In this document: positions 2,006 to 10,879 of the stretch, one piece after another
Layout of the letters: each line of letters starts with the position of its first letter
How positions within the stretch are numbered: the stretch's first letter is position 1
NCBI GenBank assembly: GCA_005239845.1
Contig: SBBD01000013.1
Span: 1 to 10,879, forward strand
DNA length: 10,879 nt
Origin: an archaeon
GTDB taxonomy: Archaea > Micrarchaeota > Micrarchaeia > Norongarragalinales > SBBD01
Direction: 5' to 3'
Translations under genes and position numbers: made by a program
The notes under the pieces: model-generated
The model's input: only the letters and a program-made list of their open reading frames with translations
Told to the model about the DNA's origin: nothing
Database searches by the model: none

Positions 2006-4102
2006 CTAGTTGTTGGACTTGGCGGTCCAGAAGGCCCAGGCCACCACGGCAAGGGCCAGCACGAAGAACACGGCAGCGTACTGTTGGTAAAGCCCGGCAA
2101 TGCGGGTCTTGGCCATGCTGAGGACGCTTTCGAGCCTGTCTTTGGCTACGACCAACGTTTGCGCGGACTCCTCGTCTTTTCCTTGTTCCTCCAATTGCTT
2201 GGCTTCCTCCACGAGGCGCTGTACGTCCTGCAAGTCGGTGGAAGGCATCTGCACGCTGAGCTGGCTGACCAAGTAGCTCATGCTGTAGAGTTCCAGCTTG
2301 AGGGCCGATACGCTGCGCGTGACGGGCGGCGCCGGAGTAGGAGTGAGAACGATCCCGGGCACGCGGATGCCAATGCCCGCCTCGTCGAACTGCCGCTGCA
2401 GTTCCTGGCGTTCCCGTTGCGAGGGCACGGCTTTGCCGCTGACCGGTAATTTCCCGCAGCCCGTCGGTTCTGGGGCGTTCTGGAAAGTATAGGCTATTAA
2501 CTGTTCAACGTCTAGTACATCGATTACTCCATTTCCGTCCACGTCCGCACTTTCTAAGACGATGGGCGCTTTTCCTTCACGGAAGACATAGTCAACGAGT
2601 AGCACGACGTCGAAAATGTTGATGACGCCGTCGTTATTCAAATCGCCGCAAATATATCCTTCACCGAAAAATTGGCTCTCCAATTGCAGGGTCAGCGCCA
2701 TGGCGTAGCCACTGTTCGAGATGTTGGAAATGTTGACCCCCGTCTTCTGTCCAGCATAATTGTGGGAACTCGGGGTGCTGACGGCGTTAAAGAAGCGGTT
2801 GTTCGTGCTTCCAGGGTAAGGGTCTCCTGCGTTTCCTTGGTTTATGTTTCTTTCGAGTTCCCAGAGGCCGTCCGCTTGTTCCAAGGCTACTTTGTAGTGC
2901 CCGCTGGCGTTATAGCCCGGATACCACTCTCTGGTGTTTGAACCCTGCGCTTCGTCCACATGCCAGATGAGGAGGCCGCTTCCAGGAAGCGCTGCGTCAT
3001 ACCCTATTTTTTGCCTGTTTTCGATCATGAAGTATTCTCTGGAAGGCGTGTTGTTCAAAGGAATGCGATAAATGGCGTCTCCCGAGGTTTCCGCATTCAA
3101 GAGCTGCACCGTGCCGGAAGTGGTAAGGTTGTTGGCAGGCGTGAATCCCAAGAATTTTTTGCTCCAGGCATCAAAGTGGGCGGGCGAGCTTCCCAGCCTT
3201 CCGTTCCACGAGCCTCCAGCCATGACGCTCCATCGCCCAACACCTCGCGAGCTATGGTCCACATCATACAAGTCCGGCAAGCCGAAGTTGTGGCCGAACT
3301 CGTGGGCGTAGACTCCAATCGTCATGTCGTTGGGGTTGATCCAGTATTCGGGTTCCGTGTCATAATCCGAAATGTTGACGCCATCCCGTTTTCTGGGAGT
3401 GATTCCCCACTTATGAGACCAGATGTCGTTAACGCTTCCGCTGAGTTCGGCGCCCCGTCCCGCGTGCACTACCGTGATGCCCTCTACTCTTCCGTCGCCG
3501 TCGTTGTCATAATCCGCAAAATTGATGAAGGGGTCCACGATGTCCACGAGGTCTTCGACGAGCTTTTGCGTGTTTTGCGGATAACTTCCCATACCGTAGA
3601 CATTATTCGTGTAGTACGCGAGTGTTTGGGGCGCACGCTTCCACCCCAGCGAGGAAGGCAGGTTCACGGTAATCAAGTCGAGCTGGCCGTACGAGTTTTC
3701 CAAGTAGAACATCCTGACCGAGGAAGTCAAGTTTGTGAAAATGAGGCTGTCAAAGAAGGGCGGGTTTACTTTGGCGGGCTTGTCGGGGAAGTCGACGAGG
3801 AGGACGAGCTTGCGGAAGGTTCGAGTGATAGTTCCCGCTTTAGTGGAAAAGCCTGCGCGCAGCTTTCCGAGTTCCAACTTCTGGGATGGCGCGTCGATTC
3901 CTGCGTTCTGGAGTGCTTGCGGATTTGTGAACCAGAAGGGTTCAGCGACTCTTTTCTCCCCTATTTTTTCCAAGAGTTCCGGGGCAGGGGGCATGGGGTG
4001 GATGGAGGTACCCGAAACGGGTTGGAGGGAGGCGTGGATGCCGCCTCCCGTAAAAACAAGGAGCGTGAAGAGGATGACGATGGCCTTCCAGCCTGTTTTC
4101 AT
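2006..4102 (-). CDS. secreted membrane-anchored M6-family metalloprotease with dockerin domain
   Basis: 698 residues. A signal peptide (1-25) leads to an M6 (immune-inhibitor-A-like) zinc peptidase domain, about 95-475: LVDFPDKP (102-109), an Asp-rich loop DYDNDGDGR (197-205), the zinc motif HEFGHNFGLPDLYD (267-280; H267, E268, H271) and the WSVMAGGSWNG turn (291-301). A type I dockerin follows (484-548) with two calcium loops, GDLNNDG (486-492) and ADVDGNG (519-525). Next come a Pro/Thr-rich stretch (582-596), a helical stalk (598-670) and one membrane span (675-692) with a short KSNN tail. The peptidase would therefore face outward, tethered to the cytoplasmic membrane. Dockerins bind cohesins, but no cohesin is recognised here. 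The start ATG has a TATA-like box about 30 bases upstream. It is divergent from the large surface protein gene and carries a stalk motif like those in both downstream membrane proteins. Confidence 0.92.
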   Translation of the reverse strand: MKTGWKAIVILFTLLVFTGGGIHASLQPVSGTSIHPMPPAPELLEKIGEKRVAEPFWFTNPQALQNAGIDAPSQKLELGKLRAGFSTKAGTITRTFRKLVLLVDFPDKPAKVNPPFFDSLIFTNLTSSVRMFYLENSYGQLDLITVNLPSSLGWKRAPQTLAYYTNNVYGMGSYPQNTQKLVEDLVDIVDPFINFADYDNDGDGRVEGITVVHAGRGAELSGSVNDIWSHKWGITPRKRDGVNISDYDTEPEYWINPNDMTIGVYAHEFGHNFGLPDLYDVDHSSRGVGRWSVMAGGSWNGRLGSSPAHFDAWSKKFLGFTPANNLTTSGTVQLLNAETSGDAIYRIPLNNTPSREYFMIENRQKIGYDAALPGSGLLIWHVDEAQGSNTREWYPGYNASGHYKVALEQADGLWELERNINQGNAGDPYPGSTNNRFFNAVSTPSSHNYAGQKTGVNISNISNSGYAMALTLQLESQFFGEGYICGDLNNDGVINIFDVVLLVDYVFREGKAPIVLESADVDGNGVIDVLDVEQLIAYTFQNAPEPTGCGKLPVSGKAVPSQRERQELQRQFDEAGIGIRVPGIVLTPTPAPPVTRSVSALKLELYSMSYLVSQLSVQMPSTDLQDVQRLVEEAKQLEEQGKDEESAQTLVVAKDRLESVLSMAKTRIAGLYQQYAAVFFVLALAVVAWAFWTAKSNN

Positions 4103-4130
4103 GCGACCTATCCTATCACTTTTTCGCCGT

Positions 4131-4138
4131 TTTTAAAA
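4131..4138 (-). promoter_or_regulatory. TATA-like box of the metalloprotease gene
   Basis: TTTTAAAA within AGTTTTAAAAACG on the minus strand. Its centre is about 33 bases before the ATG at 4102, which predicts a transcript start near 4108 and an almost leaderless mRNA. Between box and ATG there is only a partial ribosome-binding match (GATAGG). Confidence 0.55.
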
Positions 4139-4156
4139 CTATGGTTGGCTTCAGGC

Positions 4157-4169
4157 AGGAGTGACTCCT
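4157..4169. repeat. 13-bp perfect palindrome in the divergent promoter region
   Basis: AGGAGTGACTCCT: 6-bp arms around a single G. It lies 18 bases upstream of the protease TATA box and about 90 bases before the one for the large surface gene, so a bound dimer could control the protease or both. No second copy was noticed in the window. Confidence 0.35.
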
Positions 4170-4257
4170 CGGCTTTTAGCGCTCTACTGCAGTTTTTTGG
4201 AAGCCGTTCCAGGAAACGAATCGGGTTCCATGGGGGCCATCGCGTGAATAGTAATCC

Positions 4258-4265
4258 ATTTAAGG
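4258..4265 (+). promoter_or_regulatory. candidate TATA box of the surface-protein operon
   Basis: ATTTAAGG, about 50 bases before the GTG start. The predicted transcript start is near 4288 with a leader of about 20 bases that contains the AAAAGGGG ribosome-binding stretch (4295-4302). The rest of the 205-base gap (4103-4307) holds no gene. Confidence 0.4.
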
Positions 4266-4307
4266 CGTCCCCGCCTTTAGCCTGCTGTCTCAAGAAAAGG
4301 GGTTCGC

Positions 4308-7300
4308 GTGCGAATAAGCTATAGACGCCAAGGTTCTTTCATTTTTTTGGCTTTTTTGCTGGCAAGCCTAGCATTCCAAACCTCGGAAGCCAAGGAAATC
4401 AATGCTTCGGGGGCCGACGGCCTTGTTGCGTACGTGCCCACGCTTCCCGGCAACGTCGTCTTTTACCGCACGTGGAGCAATGACAACAAGAACTTCAGCG
4501 ATCAAGCGAGCACCATCAATTCTCTTACAAACAACGTGATGTGGGCCAACGTTCGGGCCAACCACGAGCGCGACGAGTTTTTGATGAGCACGTTTACGTC
4601 GGGCACGCTCCGCATTCACACTCAAGTCTTCAATGGGACCGGGTGGAACAACCTGACGCAGCATACTGCTACTGCGGAAAACGCGGCGCAACGGCAGGTG
4701 GATGCGGCCTACGAAGACCTGTCGGGGGATGCCTTGATTGTCTTCGAGAACTCGAGCACTGCCGACGACGTGTTCGCCTTCACAATATGGAACGGCACCG
4801 CTTACGCCTCTCCACGCCCCTATCACCGAGGCTCGAGCGCGGAAATCAGGTGGATTCGCTTAGTGCCAAAACCCGCTTCCGACGACATCATGCTAATCCT
4901 TTTGGACAACCAGTTGGACATGCACGCCGTCTTGTGGAACGGGACGGACTTTGACGCGAGCACGGCCTTGAACTTGACCACGGTAGCCTCTACGTTCACG
5001 GAAGAACAGTTCGACTTTTCGTGGGAAAGCCTCAGCGGCGACGGCTTGATGGTTTACGGCGTCTCCACGCCAGGAATCAGCTGGGCTTTCCGCACCTACG
5101 ACGCTTCCACGAAGCTGTGGAGCAGCCAAGGCACGTTTTTCACGCTCAACGGCGGAGCTCCCCGTTTCACGAGGCTGTGCAGCGACCCCAACTCCGATTA
5201 CGTGGGCGCCATTTTCTACGACACCACCAGTGACGTCAACGTGCGCATGTGGGATGGCGAACTCGTCCAAAACGCCCCCGCTCCTCCTTCCGAGGATGCG
5301 ACGACGGAGGCGAGCGCGAGCGCCAGGCATGCGAACTGCCAGTGGGTGGCTTCGGGAGCCTATGCGGCTTTCGTGTTCGTGGACGCCGTCAACTTTACGA
5401 CTTTGACGTATGTGAATTTCACGCAAAGCCCCGATGCTTGGTCCGTATCGAACTTGGAGTTGGCTGCTGAAACGAGTGCCGTGGGATCCAACCGCATCCG
5501 TGCGGTGGATTTCGTGTCCAATCCCGTGACGGATGAAATCATGGCGGTTACGCTGGACATTAATGAAAATGCGAGGGCCGTCCGGTGGAACGCCACGGGC
5601 TGGATATTGCCTCCTGCAGGCAACATTCCTTTGGAGGCCACGACCGAATGCTTAGATGGCCAGACGGGTTGCGCGGGCTTCGACTGGTTCCGTTATGACC
5701 CGGCGCCCAACGTCACCATCGAGTCTCCCCTTAACGGCACGAATTTTGCCGCCAACGCGCTCGCTGCATTCAATGTCAGCGTGCGGGACAACGTGAACTC
5801 TTCTTTTGCCATGGCAAACATCACGCTTCCCAACGGTACGCTAGTGCAACTCCCCTTATCCAAATTCAATTCCACGTACTTCAATGCCAGCTTTTCGCAA
5901 ACCGGATTGAACGGCACCTACACTTTTGTGATCATTGCCAATGACAGCGTGGGCCTCAAGAGCCACCAAAACCTCAATACGAGCCAGCAAGGAAATTTCA
6001 CGGTAGCTGATTTCGTTGCTCCCAACGTGACTCTCATTCTCCCAACGGCCGGGCAGGCCTTCAACCAAAGCAACGCCGTAAACATCACTGCAAATGTCTC
6101 GGACAACGTCGCCCTGCATCGCGTGATAGCCAACGTGACGCTCCCCAATGCCAGCGTCGAGCAACTGAACCTGACCACTTCAGGCGGCATTACCTATACG
6201 GCCAACTTCACGAACACGGGAACGTCAGGCAACTATTCGGTTCGCATCCACGCCAACGACACTTCCGGAAACCTGAACGGCACGCAAACCGTCAACTTTT
6301 CTGTCGGGGACGCCACCCCGCCTCGCGTGGCCGACCTAACTCCAGCAGAAGGCAGCGCGCATGCGGCCAACACCACGATTCCGCTCACCGCAAACGTTTC
6401 AGATGAAGTGAACCTTTCCTCGGTGAGGGCCAACGTCACCCTTCCCAACAGTACCATCCTCCAGCTTCTCATGACGGACGTGGACTTGAACGGCACGTTC
6501 GAAGCCAACCTTACCGTTACTCCCTTGATGGGAAATTATTCTTTCCGCCTCATCGCCAACGACACGTCCAACAACGTCAACAGCTCGTTGGCAAGAAACT
6601 TCAGCGTGGGCGACGTCGTCTTTCCCAGCGTATTAATCAGCGCTCCCGCCAACCTCTCCAACTCCTCCAATTCCACGCAACAGTTCACTTTTACTGCAAC
6701 CGACAACGCCGCTTCCACGTTGAACTGTTCCCTGTACCTCAACGGGGCGGCAAGCCAAAGCAATTCCACGGTCTTCAACAACACGCCCACGACGTTCGAG
6801 GCAACGGGGCTCTCCGACGGAAGCCACTCGTGGAACGTGAGCTGCAGCGACGCGCTCCCAAACACGAATACGACGCTCACCCGAATCGTGAACGTGGACA
6901 CGAAGGCGCCCAACTTTGTTTCGCTGGATACGTTTCCAGCAGATGAACAAGCGTTGGATCCCAACGTTCAAATCAACGTGACCGCCAACCTCACGGACAA
7001 CGTGACGGCTCCCCACACCGTGTTTTTGCAGCGGAAGCTCTCCAACGAAACCAATTATACGAACCAGTCCATGGCCTACAATGCTTCTTCCGGGTTGTTT
7101 GAAGCCAACTTCACTCCTTCCCTCAACGGCACCTACGAGTTGCGGTTGTGGGCCAATGATACGGTGGGGAACGGCAACTTCAGCAACGGCGCAAACCGGA
7201 GCGTGCAACTTGACTCCAACTGGACTCGCAGCCCTGCGGCTTTCGCGCCCGTGGGCGGCGGCTTCAACGCTTCCGTCCACATCGGGAACCTCACCCTCAA

Positions 7301-9302
7301 CAACACGGCCGACGTTTCCCTCAACTTCACGGTGTCCTCCGATTTTGCCAACGTGAGCTTCAACGAGACTTTTCCCCTCAACATTTCTGCCAACACGGTG
7401 AAACAAGTGCGGGTCAACGCTTCCACCAACAGCACTCCCGGCGCCATTTCCATCCTTCTTACCATCTCTTCCTCGAGCGAGGGAGTTCCTTCGACGCTCA
7501 CGACCAGCGCTTCCGTGGTCGTAGCTGAAGACGCCTTCCTTTCCGCCACGGTCACCAGCGCTCCCACTAGCGTGAGGCGGGGCGACACGGGCGTTGAAAT
7601 CGTCACGAAAATAAAGAACGTGGGAAGCAAGAACGCCTCGAACGTCACGCTGTACACGGGAATTCCTCCCGAGTGGACGCTTACTTTCGGCAGCCTCACG
7701 CTGTTCTTGTCCGAGTTGAACGTCTCAGAGGAGGAAACCAACATCGTCCAGGCAACTATTCCCTCCAACGCCACGCTGGGGACGCAGTTCGTCTACGCCA
7801 ACGCGACCGGCTCTAACTTTACGGGAACGAACCTGGAGACATTGAGCGCGGTCCTCAACGGCAGTGCTTCCGTCGTGGTATTGGAAGCGACGGCCCCCCT
7901 CGGAACCTCCCCGGCTCCCTCCTCCAGCGGGACCGGAAGCTCCGGAACAACCTCGGGATCGACGTCCAGCCAAAGCGTGGCCACGGCCTCGAAGCCCGAG
8001 TCGAAGCTGCAAGAAAAACTCAAATCCTCCTTCATTGAGTCCAACGATACGGTGCGCGTAACGCGGGGCACCCAAATCGCTTTTCCATTAAAAGTCAGGA
8101 ACCCGTTCGCCAACGTCTCCTTGCAAAACATTTCGTTGTTCGTGGAAGGCCCGCTGGCGCAATTCATTTCCTACTCTCCCGAATCCTTGCATGAAATTCG
8201 GTACGGGGAAGAAAAAAGCTTTGAAGTAGTAGTTCGCGCGCCTGCCTACCAAGAAAAGGAGGCGTTCGAGGTCACGTTTTTCATTCGAGGAAAAGCGGTT
8301 TCGGAAGGAGAGGAAGTCGAGTTTGTCGAAAGGAGGGTGGTAACGGTTTTCATCACTTTCTTCACGCGCGTGGAAGTCACTCAGTCCAAACTCGAGGCCG
8401 AGCAAGCCATTCGAGACATGGAAAAGGCAGGCTTTTCCGCAAGACAGGCCCGCGCCTATTTCGAGGAGCTCGAGAAAGCCCTGGCGGAAGAGGACTTTGA
8501 TAGGGCAGAAGACTTGAAAAACCTCATCCTCGCGCTCCGCAACGACGCCGTGGAAGCTTCCCGCCTCATTCAGGAAGTGAGGCAGGCGGTGGAACGGGGA
8601 ACGAGGCAGGGGTTTGACGTGAGCGAGGCGAAAAAGCTGTTGGCGTTGGCGGAGGCCGCCTTTGCCTCGGAAGACTATGAGACGGCCAAGGAGCGGGCCC
8701 GGCAAGCGTTGCTCGTTGCAGGCATCGAGGCCAGCGGCGCCAACGTGTTCGGCTTCCTCGTGCAGTACTGGCCCTTTGTGGGAATATTTTTAGCCGGCGT
8801 CGGAATCTTCGCTGTCATTGCCTACCAACGCGAGCAGGCCCGCAGGCTCCATGAACGCTTGGACGCCTTGGCGAAAGAGGAACTGCAAGTGTTTTCGTTG
8901 ATGCGGGAGGCTCAGGACAAGTGCTTCAAGAAACAGCTCCTCAGCCTTTCCGACTACTATTCCGTGATGCACAAGCTGGAGAAGCGGCTGGAAGGCCTGC
9001 ACCGCGAAAGGAGCAAGCTTCGCAGGAAGCGGCTCCTCCTTTCCACTCCCGAGCAAGAGTTGGAGCAGCTTGCGAAGGAAAAGGCGCACCTGTTGCGGCT
9101 GCTGCAGTCCGTGCAGGAAATGCGGTTCGTGAAGCGGAAACTGGGCCAGGAAAAGTACGAGGGCACGAGGAACGCCTGCATTTCCATGCTCAATGAGGTC
9201 GAGGAAGAATTGGCTGTTTTGACGGCGAGCTTGCGTTCGGGAAAAAGGAGCGGCAAAGACGAGGGGCTGAAGCTTTTGCAACACCAACGGGGAATGCCAT
9301 GA
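4308..9302 (+). CDS. giant surface protein: predicted propeller, Ig-like array, membrane span, cytoplasmic coiled coil
   Basis: 1664 residues from a GTG preceded by AAAAGGGG five bases upstream. Order: signal peptide (1-28); seven repeats of about 53 residues ending in WNGT-like turns (109, 161, 210, 264, 315, about 372, 427), read as a seven-bladed beta-propeller (about 35-462); five Ig/cadherin-like domains (467-566, 571-668, 670-769, 770-866, 867-968) with ANVTLPN and NYSxRxxANDTS phrases; two CARDB/NEW3-like domains (969-1075, 1076-1192); a Ser/Gly/Thr linker (1199-1224); another beta domain (about 1240-1350); a helical stalk (1356-1471); one membrane span (1482-1505); and a basic cytoplasmic coiled coil (1506-1664) with two tandem hairpins. 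N-glycosylation sequons are very dense: 19 between residues 468 and 621. Probably a glycosylated adhesin, receptor or cell-wall component; ligand unknown. Its stop overlaps the next start (ATGA). Confidence 0.88.
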   Translation: MRISYRRQGSFIFLAFLLASLAFQTSEAKEINASGADGLVAYVPTLPGNVVFYRTWSNDNKNFSDQASTINSLTNNVMWANVRANHERDEFLMSTFTSGTLRIHTQVFNGTGWNNLTQHTATAENAAQRQVDAAYEDLSGDALIVFENSSTADDVFAFTIWNGTAYASPRPYHRGSSAEIRWIRLVPKPASDDIMLILLDNQLDMHAVLWNGTDFDASTALNLTTVASTFTEEQFDFSWESLSGDGLMVYGVSTPGISWAFRTYDASTKLWSSQGTFFTLNGGAPRFTRLCSDPNSDYVGAIFYDTTSDVNVRMWDGELVQNAPAPPSEDATTEASASARHANCQWVASGAYAAFVFVDAVNFTTLTYVNFTQSPDAWSVSNLELAAETSAVGSNRIRAVDFVSNPVTDEIMAVTLDINENARAVRWNATGWILPPAGNIPLEATTECLDGQTGCAGFDWFRYDPAPNVTIESPLNGTNFAANALAAFNVSVRDNVNSSFAMANITLPNGTLVQLPLSKFNSTYFNASFSQTGLNGTYTFVIIANDSVGLKSHQNLNTSQQGNFTVADFVAPNVTLILPTAGQAFNQSNAVNITANVSDNVALHRVIANVTLPNASVEQLNLTTSGGITYTANFTNTGTSGNYSVRIHANDTSGNLNGTQTVNFSVGDATPPRVADLTPAEGSAHAANTTIPLTANVSDEVNLSSVRANVTLPNSTILQLLMTDVDLNGTFEANLTVTPLMGNYSFRLIANDTSNNVNSSLARNFSVGDVVFPSVLISAPANLSNSSNSTQQFTFTATDNAASTLNCSLYLNGAASQSNSTVFNNTPTTFEATGLSDGSHSWNVSCSDALPNTNTTLTRIVNVDTKAPNFVSLDTFPADEQALDPNVQINVTANLTDNVTAPHTVFLQRKLSNETNYTNQSMAYNASSGLFEANFTPSLNGTYELRLWANDTVGNGNFSNGANRSVQLDSNWTRSPAAFAPVGGGFNASVHIGNLTLNNTADVSLNFTVSSDFANVSFNETFPLNISANTVKQVRVNASTNSTPGAISILLTISSSSEGVPSTLTTSASVVVAEDAFLSATVTSAPTSVRRGDTGVEIVTKIKNVGSKNASNVTLYTGIPPEWTLTFGSLTLFLSELNVSEEETNIVQATIPSNATLGTQFVYANATGSNFTGTNLETLSAVLNGSASVVVLEATAPLGTSPAPSSSGTGSSGTTSGSTSSQSVATASKPESKLQEKLKSSFIESNDTVRVTRGTQIAFPLKVRNPFANVSLQNISLFVEGPLAQFISYSPESLHEIRYGEEKSFEVVVRAPAYQEKEAFEVTFFIRGKAVSEGEEVEFVERRVVTVFITFFTRVEVTQSKLEAEQAIRDMEKAGFSARQARAYFEELEKALAEEDFDRAEDLKNLILALRNDAVEASRLIQEVRQAVERGTRQGFDVSEAKKLLALAEAAFASEDYETAKERARQALLVAGIEASGANVFGFLVQYWPFVGIFLAGVGIFAVIAYQREQARRLHERLDALAKEELQVFSLMREAQDKCFKKQLLSLSDYYSVMHKLEKRLEGLHRERSKLRRKRLLLSTPEQELEQLAKEKAHLLRLLQSVQEMRFVKRKLGQEKYEGTRNACISMLNEVEEELAVLTASLRSGKRSGKDEGLKLLQHQRGMP
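8445..8531 (+). repeat. stalk motif copy 1 (giant protein residues 1380-1408)
   Basis: First of five 29-residue helical motifs that align without gaps across three proteins of this window. Key positions here: FEELEKAL (1385-1392) then EEDFDRA (1394-1400). The pattern is roughly A..LL..A..AF..ED(Y/F/L)E.A. It lies on the outer side, before the membrane span. Confidence 0.6.
8625..8711 (+). repeat. stalk motif copy 2 (giant protein residues 1440-1468)
   Basis: Second copy, 60 residues after the first, with LLALAEAAF (1444-1452) then SEDYETA (1454-1460). It ends about 14 residues before the membrane span. Confidence 0.6.
8877..9020 (+). repeat. cytoplasmic hairpin copy 1 (giant protein residues 1524-1571)
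   Basis: A 48-residue helical hairpin. It aligns without gaps with copy 2 at residues 1591-1638 and with residues 251-298 of the next protein. Shared positions, numbered within the motif: E1, L8, Q13, aromatic 17 (F1540 here), I/L 22 in two of the three copies, Y27 (Y1550 here), L38 and E44. Confidence 0.6.
9078..9221 (+). repeat. cytoplasmic hairpin copy 2 (giant protein residues 1591-1638)
   Basis: Second copy of the hairpin, 67 residues after the first, keeping E1591, L1598, Q1603, F1607, Y1617 and E1634. It indicates an internal duplication of the cytoplasmic tail. Confidence 0.55.
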
Positions 9303-10219
9303 AACATCTTGTGCCTGTTTTCTTGTGCTTTTTGTTGCTGTTTTCCGTTTTTACGGAAGGGCAAAGTGAGACAAACAAGCTGGAAGGGGAAGCGGAACTG
9401 GCGCTCATCGAGGCGGAAGTCGTCCTCCAGGAAATGAGGCAGCAGGGCATGGGCACCGCTTACGCGGACGATTTGCTGCTCCAGGCCCGCCAGGCTTTTG
9501 AAGGAGAAGACTTGGAACTGGCGTTGACAAGAGCGAAATACTTGAACCAGACCGGACAGGAAGAGGAAGCCCGAGCACTCCTGCAGCAAGTCGTTGACGC
9601 CCAACGGACGGGAAGCAAGCTGAATCCCGACTACAAGACGGCGCTCTTGAAGGTCCGCCAAATCCAGGAAAGGAAAAAAGAGGCGTACGCCCTCCGCGAC
9701 CAGTTGCAGGAAGTTAACCTAACGTTAAACGAATTGGAAGGAAGCCCCTTCGACCTCTCGGAAAGCCATCGTTCTTTCCAGCTTGCCGAAGAAAGCTTCA
9801 AGCTCGAGCGCTTTCCGGAGACGCGCACGTACCTGAACCAAACCCTGCAAAACATTCATGCCGCGAAAGCGGAATATTCCGTGTTGAACGCGTTGCTGAA
9901 GGCCTCCCGCAACAACGTGGAATCCTTCGTGAAAGAGAACGGCTATGCCCTTCTCGCCGCCTTTTTCGCGCTCAGCGTTCTCGGCTACCTTTCCTACCGC
10001 GTGCTTCGAAAGCGGCGTTTGGAGGAACGCGTCCGCTTCTTGAAGAAAGAGGTTGCCGTGCTTCAGGAACTCCTCAAGCGCATCCAGGAAGACTTTTACT
10101 TAAACCACGCCATCTCGAGGCAAGTGTACGAGCTGCGGAAGGAACAGTACCAGCGCAAACTCTTAAAAATCAAGTCCGAGTTACCCGTTATGGAAAAACA
10201 ACTGAAACGCTTCCTCTAA
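9299..10219 (+). CDS. single-pass membrane protein with helical ectodomain and cytoplasmic hairpin
   Basis: 306 residues, no named family recognised. A signal peptide (1-22) is followed by an almost all-helical, Glu/Gln-rich outer part (23-210), one membrane span (215-234) and a basic cytoplasmic coiled coil (235-306). The outer part contains two stalk motifs (55-83 and 155-183) of the same kind as the stalk of the preceding giant protein, and the tail contains one copy (251-298) of the hairpin that occurs twice in that protein's tail. It therefore looks like a paralogue of the giant protein's C-terminal third without the large beta head. The ATG lies within the preceding stop (ATGA), so translation is probably coupled and the two products likely accumulate together, perhaps pairing through stalks and tails. 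One or two potential Asn-glycosylation sites lie outside (N83, N180), far fewer than in its neighbour. Confidence 0.85.
   Translation: MKHLVPVFLCFLLLFSVFTEGQSETNKLEGEAELALIEAEVVLQEMRQQGMGTAYADDLLLQARQAFEGEDLELALTRAKYLNQTGQEEEARALLQQVVDAQRTGSKLNPDYKTALLKVRQIQERKKEAYALRDQLQEVNLTLNELEGSPFDLSESHRSFQLAEESFKLERFPETRTYLNQTLQNIHAAKAEYSVLNALLKASRNNVESFVKENGYALLAAFFALSVLGYLSYRVLRKRRLEERVRFLKKEVAVLQELLKRIQEDFYLNHAISRQVYELRKEQYQRKLLKIKSELPVMEKQLKRFL
10049..10192 (+). repeat. cytoplasmic hairpin copy 3 (306-residue protein, residues 251-298)
   Basis: Third copy, in the partner protein, keeping E251, L258, Q263, Y267, I272, Y277, L288 and E294. Its position just after the membrane span matches that in the giant protein. 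Confidence 0.6.
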
Positions 10220-10297
10220 GTGTGAGCAGGAAAAGGCAAGAAAGGCGATGGGTAGGGGCTCCATAATCCTCTGGCGTGTTTGGGGCAAGGTGTTTTC
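10220..10297 (+). promoter_or_regulatory. short gap before the ATPase gene with its ribosome-binding site
   Basis: 78 bases without a gene. AAGGTG (10287-10292) lies five bases before the ATPase ATG. A poor TATA-like CCATAATCC occurs at 10260-10268, and no T-run terminator follows the preceding stop, so readthrough from the upstream operon is as likely as a separate promoter. Confidence 0.45.
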
Positions 10298-10879
10298 ATG
10301 AGGAGAACAAAAAAACGCAACAAAAAAGCCGTCAGGACGAAACCCTTTTTGAGGCCACAAGAGCGTCCGTGGATTCGCACGGGCATTGCCGGGTTTGACG
10401 AGTTGCTTGACCAAGGCATTCCCCGGGGCGCTTCCGTTCTTGTTACGGGAGGCGCGGGTTCCGGGAAGACCATTTTCTGCCTCCAACTCGCCCATTCTTT
10501 GGCACGGCAAGGATTGACGTGCCTGTACATGAGCCTCGAGGAATCCGAAGAGCGTTTGGTGGAACACATGCGGGACTTTGGCTGGCATCCCGAGGCTTTG
10601 CAAGGGGGCCGCCTGCTCGTCAAGCGCTTCAACTTGTTTGACGTGACGACGCAGGTGGACGCCATGCTGGAAAAGGCGCGGGGGGAGCTGTTGATCGACT
10701 TGGATCCCCTGCTTTCCTCGCAGCTTCCGGCGGGCTTCAAGCCGGACGTGGTGGTGCTGGATTCCCTTTCTGCGGTGGCGGCCGCGTTTACGGGAAAACC
10801 CGAGGCCTACCGGGCCTACTTGGAGCAATTGTTCCGCATTTTAGAGAAAATGAGGGCCACGTCCTTCCTCGTCGTGGAA
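10298..10879 (+). CDS. KaiC/RAD55-like RecA-fold ATPase, 3' end outside window
   Basis: 194 codons are visible and the frame is open at the edge. After a very basic N-terminus (RRTKKRNKKAVRTK, 2-15) comes the KaiC-domain opening TGIAGFDELLDQGIPRG (28-44), Walker A GGAGSGKT (51-58), the paired acidic residues E81-E82 in MSLEESEERL (78-87) that serve as catalytic glutamates in KaiC, and Walker B PDVVVLDS (149-156; D155). These mark an ATP-binding protein of the RecA superfamily, KaiC/RAD55 branch, members of which act in signalling, motility (ArlH) or DNA-related roles. No signal peptide or membrane segment is seen, so it is cytoplasmic. Its place 78 bases after two membrane proteins with cytoplasmic coiled coils suggests, without proving, that it acts on them. 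Whether it has one or two KaiC domains cannot be seen. Confidence 0.93.
   Translation, partial: MRRTKKRNKKAVRTKPFLRPQERPWIRTGIAGFDELLDQGIPRGASVLVTGGAGSGKTIFCLQLAHSLARQGLTCLYMSLEESEERLVEHMRDFGWHPEALQGGRLLVKRFNLFDVTTQVDAMLEKARGELLIDLDPLLSSQLPAGFKPDVVVLDSLSAVAAAFTGKPEAYRAYLEQLFRILEKMRATSFLVVE

Follow-up and report, generated by a model that had tools for sequence, protein, structure and literature searches.

A variable-headed giant surface protein, a small partner and a KaiC-like ATPase recur as a three-gene module in DPANN archaea

Genes at the locus

We analysed a stretch of 10,879 nucleotides from an archaeon of the Micrarchaeota (contig SBBD01000013.1 of assembly GCA_005239845.1), referred to below as the window, which is the entire contig. 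It encodes a giant surface protein, a small membrane protein and the beginning of a KaiC-like ATPase, and a comparison of related loci showed that these three genes, the giant one with a variable head, recur as a module across DPANN archaea and in a few other organisms. The initial annotation of this DNA, with whose open reading frames ours agree in coordinates and residue counts, had grouped the giant and small proteins with a neighbouring M6 protease; the third place in fact belongs to the KaiC-like ATPase encoded directly downstream, beyond the coordinates which that annotation covered. The start of the small gene overlaps the end of the giant gene by 4 bases. The genes concerned are:

4308..9302, + strand: giant surface protein, 1664 residues; its head contains Big_7 and Big_13 immunoglobulin-like (Ig-like) domains together with a single NEW3/NPCBM_assoc domain and is followed by a conserved C-terminal anchor
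9299..10219, + strand: small partner, 306 residues, with an N-terminal hydrophobic segment, two hairpins, one span and one cytoplasmic coiled-coil hairpin
10280..10879, + strand: KaiC-like ATPase (PF06745) truncated at the contig end, its first in-frame ATG lying near 10298
2006..4102, - strand: M6 metalloprotease, 698 residues, carrying a type I dockerin domain as well as a C-terminal stalk and span of its own; a neighbour, judged to lie outside the module

Recurrence of the three genes

The KaiC-like ATPase of the window, used as bait, retrieved 92 loci from named genomes, of which we kept the best 80 (L015-L094); counts out of 81 refer to these 80 loci and the window, and L-loci to the 80 without it. 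The 80 loci belong to Micrarchaeota, Aenigmatarchaeota, Pacearchaeota, Woesearchaeota, Nanoarchaeota, Diapherotrites and Nanohaloarchaea, and to a few Thermoplasmatota and Hydrothermarchaeota; two come from bins labelled bacterial. A small or giant gene scoring at least 50 bits is present at 57 of the 81 loci (52 small, 41 giant, 36 both), and without this limit the counts become 58 with either, 52, 43 and 37, the scores not being independent, since the final giant and small models were built from the same loci in a second round. First-round models, made from five small and four giant sequences and ten database proteins, recovered the same families.

The 36 loci with all three genes show seven different orders and orientations, and the genes therefore stay together despite rearrangement. 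Among 34 same-strand giant/small pairs the gap lies between -40 and +60 bases in 31, and is exactly -4, as in the window, in 15. The giant and small proteins are encoded in one frame at L019, L073 and L074, where the open reading frames were inspected, and two matches to the small model fall within one in-frame open reading frame in 7 of 30 Aenigmatarchaeota carriers (G305, G688, G692, G697, G709, G710 and G765). The N-terminal hydrophobic segment of the small protein becomes an internal span in the giant/small fusions, which fits a topology with the hairpins outside and the coil inside.

Whole-genome counts were made with an anchor model (A3, E-value 1e-12) and an ATPase model (A1, 1e-55, or 1e-60 in the window's phylum), on genome samples taken from larger groups and with part of the candidates per genome scored. 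The rows of A3 were hand-picked from 49 of the 52 small-bearing loci and from other sources, leaving out the over-long L061, L064 and L086 and the fragment L027. Taking "anchor" to mean small or giant, as A3 also matches giant anchors, the phylum of the L018 genome (371 genomes) has the anchor in 50 genomes, the ATPase in 51, both in 47 and either in 54, with 6.9 joint occurrences expected; the phylum of the L028 genome (155 genomes) has 30, 35, 29 and 36, with 6.8 expected; and the window's phylum (301 genomes) has 8, 7, 7 and 8, the eighth anchor genome (G154) holding a partial match at a contig start. Anchor and ATPase lie within 12 kb on the same contig in 40 of the 47 genomes, in 23 of the 29 and in all 7 from the window's phylum; of the remaining pairs, one has a separation of 21.9 kb and 12 are split between contigs.

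A profile search with the small family yielded 10 further sequences, and among 147 genomes the small protein has four distant Micrarchaeota relatives (G005, G112, G039 and G136). A giant of 2253-3203 residues adjoins the small gene in three of these four, and in G112 a giant-like match lies on a different contig from the small gene. A match in G113 was dropped: it sits in a frame of 1067 residues whose start resembles an isoleucyl-tRNA synthetase.

A common anchor in the giant and small proteins

The C-terminal part of the giant protein and most of the small one can be divided into the same series of elements:

giant residues 1227-1649, + strand: anchor as a whole, 422 bits with a family hidden Markov model that contains the window's own row
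7986..8372, + strand: giant membrane-proximal domain of beta type ahead of the hairpins (residues 1227-1355), aligned across giants, fold type predicted
8391..8537, + strand: giant juxtamembrane hairpin 1 (residues 1362-1410), hhalign 96.1% to small hairpin 1
8538..8732, + strand: giant juxtamembrane hairpin 2 (residues 1411-1475), hhalign 95.2% to small hairpin 2 and 93.0% to giant hairpin 1
8766..8822, + strand: giant membrane span (residues 1487-1505), hydropathy peak
8823..9017, + strand: giant cytoplasmic coiled-coil hairpin, copy 1 (residues 1506-1570), hhalign 98.4% to the small cytoplasmic part and 98.4% to copy 2
9018..9257, + strand: giant cytoplasmic coiled-coil hairpin, copy 2 (residues 1571-1650), hhalign 98.8% to the small cytoplasmic part
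9380..9613, + strand: small hairpin 1 (residues 28-105), with an insertion absent from the four Micrarchaeota relatives
9614..9913, + strand: small hairpin 2 (residues 106-205), from hhalign
9950..10006, + strand: small membrane span (residues 218-236), hydropathy peak
10010..10216, + strand: small cytoplasmic coiled-coil hairpin (residues 238-306), from hhalign

The alignments place hairpin 1, hairpin 2, the span and the cytoplasmic coiled-coil hairpin in colinear order in both proteins, the last element being present in two copies in the giant and in one in the small protein. The two stalks as wholes give 98.6% (E-value 8.6e-16) in hhalign, and cross-comparisons of stalk with cytoplasmic parts give at most 2%; hairpins 1 and 2 reach 55.7% within the small protein, compared with 93.0% within the giant. 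Two kinds of column shuffle were applied to four module pairs, including hairpin 1 with 1 and 2 with 2, and 0 of 100 reached the score in each.

The initial annotation had proposed a single stalk motif for five 29-residue segments in three proteins, all of which were read out of the translations (giant residues 1380-1408 and 1440-1468, small residues 55-83 and 155-183, M6 residues 626-654). Naming each segment by its first residue, the ungapped BLOSUM62 scores are +38 for giant1440/small55 (12 of 29 residues identical), +33 for giant1380/giant1440, +31 for giant1440/small155, +18 for giant1380/small155, +4 for giant1380/small55 and -6 for small55/small155, and the four pairs with the M6 segment score from -6 to 0. 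With 5000 shuffles preserving the hydrophobic pattern, the corresponding fractions are, in the same order, 0.000, 0.024, 0.001, 0.019, 0.21 and 0.09, and those of the M6 pairs are 0.90, 0.65, 0.45 and 0.04. The four giant and small segments are thus homologous in the light of the 98.6% for the whole stalks, whereas the fifth, from the protease, is suggestive only. The motif had been followed as far as the membrane; the likeness of giant and small in fact runs on through the span and into the cytoplasm (98.4-98.8%).

These comparisons support the view that the giant and small proteins share one type of anchor by descent. Pure convergence of Glu/Ala-rich helices, with no common ancestry even for these two, would agree with the weak signal between the single sequences (at most 8 bits per domain) and with a single-sequence search in which the small protein returned itself alone among 6020 candidates; a first scan of genome contigs with the single small protein (80 stretches) likewise gave no relative. 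It is contradicted by the profile comparison, by the gene fusions and by the colinearity of the two proteins from the hairpins through the span to the cytoplasmic hairpin, and we rejected it, as highly improbable, on the profile comparison together with the column shuffles.

All 49 small proteins in A3 have exactly two hydrophobic peaks, one N-terminal and one later; the position limits set for these peaks are satisfied by 40 of the 49, the second peak lying at 48-55% of the length in the other nine. The best Pfam match of the small partner is DUF2989, at 16.9 bits, and this name was rejected as below the Pfam cut-off of 23.8 bits. Against the PDB, the small family profile gave a best E-value of 0.0078, a weak match to TPR and SNF7 chains.

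Two weak matches to the cytoplasmic hairpin were seen in G072 (C75:17614-17868 and C1:28094-28327), in frames of 5638 and 403 residues, and no ATPase was found in G072 beside them; the anchor matches of this genome (5.6e-9 and weaker) were excluded from the genome counts. At L078:10239-15686 (+ strand), a small-type anchor is fused after another large head, in a frame of 1815 residues that adjoins the ATPase.

Variable heads of the giants

Fifteen giants were scanned whole, and their heads contain Ig-like, LamG, beta-helix/NosD, RCC1 or FG-GAP parts, with no family found for that of L061. NEW3 is listed in 10 of the 15 and scores above the cut-off in 7. The heads therefore differ among carriers while the anchor is constant. 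The giant at L040:10752-16265 (+ strand) has a head of many RCC1 repeats, which is unusual for a surface protein.

Such domain contents could point to a coat structure, in which the giant would be an S-layer-like protein, the small protein a spacer anchor, and the ATPase would merely regulate expression or assembly. Archaeal S-layer-like proteins often contain Ig-like and NEW3 domains. In the consulted part of PMC6393860 (Table 1), the DPANN cluster cls.004306 (NEQ255) is described as a "secreted protein, often encoded next to arCOG02487", and arCOG02487 is predicted to be an S-layer protein that contains an Ig-like domain, according to the part of PMC5898192 consulted (Table 2). A secreted protein of DPANN archaea encoded next to an Ig protein of S-layer-like type resembles the small partner beside its giant, but the passage of PMC6393860 states no KaiC link; to judge by these partial descriptions, cls.004306 may be the small partner, in which case the small family would already be on record. 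A passive coat, however, needs neither conserved cytoplasmic hairpins nor tight linkage with an ATPase, and the heads vary widely between carriers, so that we regard the coat structure as the true arrangement only tentatively, with the odds against it.

The KaiC-like ATPase

The fragment encoded in the window scores 106.4 bits with PF06745 (cut-off 26.6). In the 81 aligned rows, the P-loop is recognised in 80, the EE pair in 81 and Walker B in 80, the ATPase without a P-loop (L044) being an incomplete frame, and by these patterns the enzyme looks active. The ATPases of L010 and L013 fall below all equivalog and hypothetical-equivalog cut-offs of circadian KaiC, ArlH and four archaeal NCBIfam KaiC families, with best scores of 107.6 bits against 408 for KaiC, 88.9 against 307 for TIGR03877, 87.8 against 249 for TIGR03880 and 41-49 against 215 for ArlH.

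A tree of the ATPases divides them into clade A (50 members, support 100/100) and clade B (31, including the window), the rows of the window being long or truncated. The small proteins divide into the same two groups (40 versus 11 and the window, 97/96), and 41 of the 57 module loci belong to clade A. The C-terminal dipeptide of clade A is LT in 45 of 50 members, FT in two, and LS, LC and LA in one each; this LT end is kept although the preceding tail varies, as if a partner read the exact C-terminus.

Histidine kinases, receivers or KaiC-like proteins without a visible P-loop lie in the stretch around the ATPase at 21 of the 30 clade B L-loci and at 2 of the 50 clade A loci. The proteins of the last kind match DUF7504 or KaiC below the curated cut-offs only, and may be read as inactivated KaiC. 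No receiver domain occurs in 4 of the 7 Micrarchaeota carriers, the window's genome among them, and the module can therefore work without two-component genes.

The signalling neighbours of clade B would suit outside-in sensing, where the head would be a receptor and contact with a host or a surface would be relayed through the stalk pair to an ATPase serving as signalling hub and not as actuator. KaiC-like proteins are said to have been proposed as archaeal signal hubs by Makarova in 2017, and the clade B ATPases, lying beside receivers, histidine kinases and apparently inactivated KaiC-like proteins, resemble such hubs; the module ATPase would differ in its dedicated partnership with the giant and its small homologue. 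Giants of 1035-3127 residues with beta-helix, LamG or RCC1 heads are, on the other hand, more like adhesins than sensors, and clade A, which holds most module loci, has hardly any signalling genes. We consider sensing in this direction unlikely.

A further small protein, which has two hydrophobic stretches but matches no Pfam family above the cut-off, occurs in 9 of the 81 loci (L017:11782-12180, L021:64-516, L024, L025, L043, L046, L047, L049 and L053). Its gene is often placed between those of the small partner and the ATPase, and it is a possible fourth component of the module. We dropped the idea that the module is part of a type IV pilus: no pilus ATPase or platform protein was found among the recurrent neighbours, a weak test in which 17 neighbour proteins were scanned.

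The neighbouring M6 protease

The protease on the opposite strand is a genuine M6 enzyme: its Pfam scores are 93.6 bits for PF05547 and 37.5 bits for PF00404, the catalytic domain is confirmed by TIGR03296 (216 bits, cut-off 110.8), the dockerin I domain is also above its cut-off, and the translation contains the motif HEFGHNFGLPD. Two parts of it matter here:

2108..2302, - strand: stalk region (residues 601-665) compared with the module hairpins by hhalign, shuffles and decoys
2489-2647, - strand: dockerin-type domain

The initial annotation had made this protease a member of a three-protein complex with the giant and small proteins, held together by the common stalk. With an M6 stalk alignment of three sequences (M6, L101 and L105) as query, hhalign gave 84% for small hairpin 2, 42% for small hairpin 1, 30% for giant hairpin 1 and 6% for giant hairpin 2; the pairing with small hairpin 2 falls in the register originally proposed, and 0 of 100 shuffles reached these scores, save 1 of 100 pattern shuffles for giant hairpin 2. 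In the reverse direction the small family as query gave 12, 25 (hairpin 2) and 14%, and the giant family 3, 0.3 and 0.6%. Helical decoys, which were real helical windows taken from neighbour genes, equalled or exceeded M6 in 13 of 184 cases for small hairpin 1, 5 of 205 for small hairpin 2, 3 of 206 for the small stalk, 17 of 194 for giant hairpin 1, 51 of 206 for giant hairpin 2 and 11 of 208 for the giant stalk. For L101 and L105 no decoy did so with small hairpin 2 (of 205) or the small stalk, and 23 to 124 did with the other four models. The profile comparison that places giant and small far above chance leaves M6 at 84% one way and 25% the other, and its stalk may be a distant single hairpin of the module kind.

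The protease has no counterpart of the module's cytoplasmic domain, no M6 or dockerin match was found in the 80 KaiC-selected loci (stretches around the ATPase), and its stalk and span, searched against the open frames of the fetched loci, matched only itself, L101 and L105. We leave it out of the module because of its uncertain stalk kinship, its lack of a cytoplasmic hairpin and its absence from related loci; it does not seem to belong to the set of giant, small protein and ATPase, and the three-protein complex is very unlikely. A common surface assembly is favoured for the giant and small proteins by their fusion, their co-occurrence and their conserved linkage with the KaiC-like ATPase, but not with the protease as third member.

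The C-terminal stalk and span of the protease (window 2045-2302, - strand) resemble an anchor common to a number of proteins of the same family that are otherwise unlike one another, matching four other open frames in G001 with E-values of 3.3e-8 to 7e-4 (C8:15390-15704, C6:75667-75984, C2:284381-284599 and C2:194132-194437). Dockerin-type domains recur in the window's family, both in its own genome (G000:C135 and G000:C50) and in at least six frames of G002. A search for cohesins in four genomes gave a sole, weak match (G000:C53, L107; 19.3 bits, cut-off 24.1), and the dockerins are possibly a cell-surface docking system without a recognised partner.

A possible switch for a surface protein

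Conserved inner handles, variable outer heads and a dedicated ATPase are together best read as a switch for a surface protein. Our preferred explanation, to which we give a probability of about 0.55, is a trans-envelope module in which a KaiC-driven switch acts on a giant adhesin or coat protein. The giant would present its variable head on a constant anchor made of a beta-type neck, two hairpins, the span and two cytoplasmic hairpins, and would pair side by side with the small protein through stalk and span, a pairing suggested by the gene fusions. The ATPase, on the evidence of gene linkage only, may dock on the three cytoplasmic hairpins of the pair, and ATP-dependent changes of a KaiC ring would then control how the giant head is displayed, how it clusters or what posture it takes, perhaps in answer to internal or two-component signals.

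Several observations weigh against this switch. No module gene of at least 50 bits was found at 24 of the 81 ATPase loci; nine of these are clade A loci, all within 3.3 kb of one end of the stretch, but 15 of the 30 clade B loci lack the module, several of them well inside contigs. The ATPase occurs without the anchor in 4 of 51 and 6 of 35 genomes, and the anchor, counted as either protein, without the ATPase in 3 of 50, in 1 of 30 and in G154; the Fisher p values for co-occurrence (4e-51, 2e-24 and, for 7 of 7, 2e-14) take no account of kinship among the genomes. Within the phylum of the window the module is sparse (7 or 8 of 301 genomes), and it was absent from G001 and G002, the two members of the window's family examined. 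The window's ATPase is truncated and on a long branch, which makes its clade uncertain. At clade B loci, signalling genes are as common where the module is missing (11 of 15) as where it is present (10 of 15), and therefore follow the ATPase and not the giant. Adhesion, finally, would be read from domain types only.

A more specific form of the switch is doubtful. A KaiC-type ring would grip the three coiled-coil tails and, through ATP-driven change, move a giant adhesin, a kind of machine not described so far; with two giant/small pairs, a six-fold ring would have six tails to hold. If so, DPANN cells could hold or release a host cell by inside-out control of adhesion, and lineages could change target by varying the heads while keeping the motor anchor constant.

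Two known systems are related to the module by way of working only, and it belongs to neither. The giants of the SPEARE system of Nanohaloarchaea, whose cytoplasmic part is read as a VirB4/TraG-like ATPase in the consulted parts of PMC6642349 and PMC10266531, also belong to DPANN symbionts and combine a giant ectodomain with Ig-like or LamG parts, a C-terminal span and a conserved cytoplasmic part connected with an ATPase. The window's giant likewise has a giant ectodomain and a span near the C-terminus; it differs from SPEARE, as described there, in its double cytoplasmic coiled-coil hairpin, its separate KaiC-like ATPase and its small homologous partner, and no VirB4/TraG-like or other ATPase domain is listed in the 15 giants scanned whole (E-value limits 0.1, 0.01 and 1e-4). 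ArlH/FlaH of the archaellum is also a KaiC-like ATPase that acts on a membrane-bound surface structure (PMC4858521, in the part consulted), but the module ATPases score far under the ArlH cut-off, and no archaellum genes were among the recurrent module neighbours looked at. The 2017 Makarova work on KaiC-like hubs is cited in the parts of PMC5847659 and PMC6393860 consulted. The trio is not described in the consulted parts of PMC6393860, PMC9563170, PMC5847659, PMC6642349, PMC10266531, PMC4858521 and PMC5898192, a literature that did not include this key KaiC paper.

The module bears on the way in which ultra-small archaea attach to their hosts and on the targets of the many KaiC-like ATPases of archaea. 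It sets one KaiC-like family beside a definite target at the surface whose cytoplasmic handle is defined, and binding can be tested with the named loci, the gene fusions and a small number of domains.

Other neighbouring genes

Upstream on the + strand, 664-1323 and 1367-1990 encode a cyclophilin and a histidine phosphatase family protein. Histidine-phosphatase-like frames are also found in G112, several kb away from the module.

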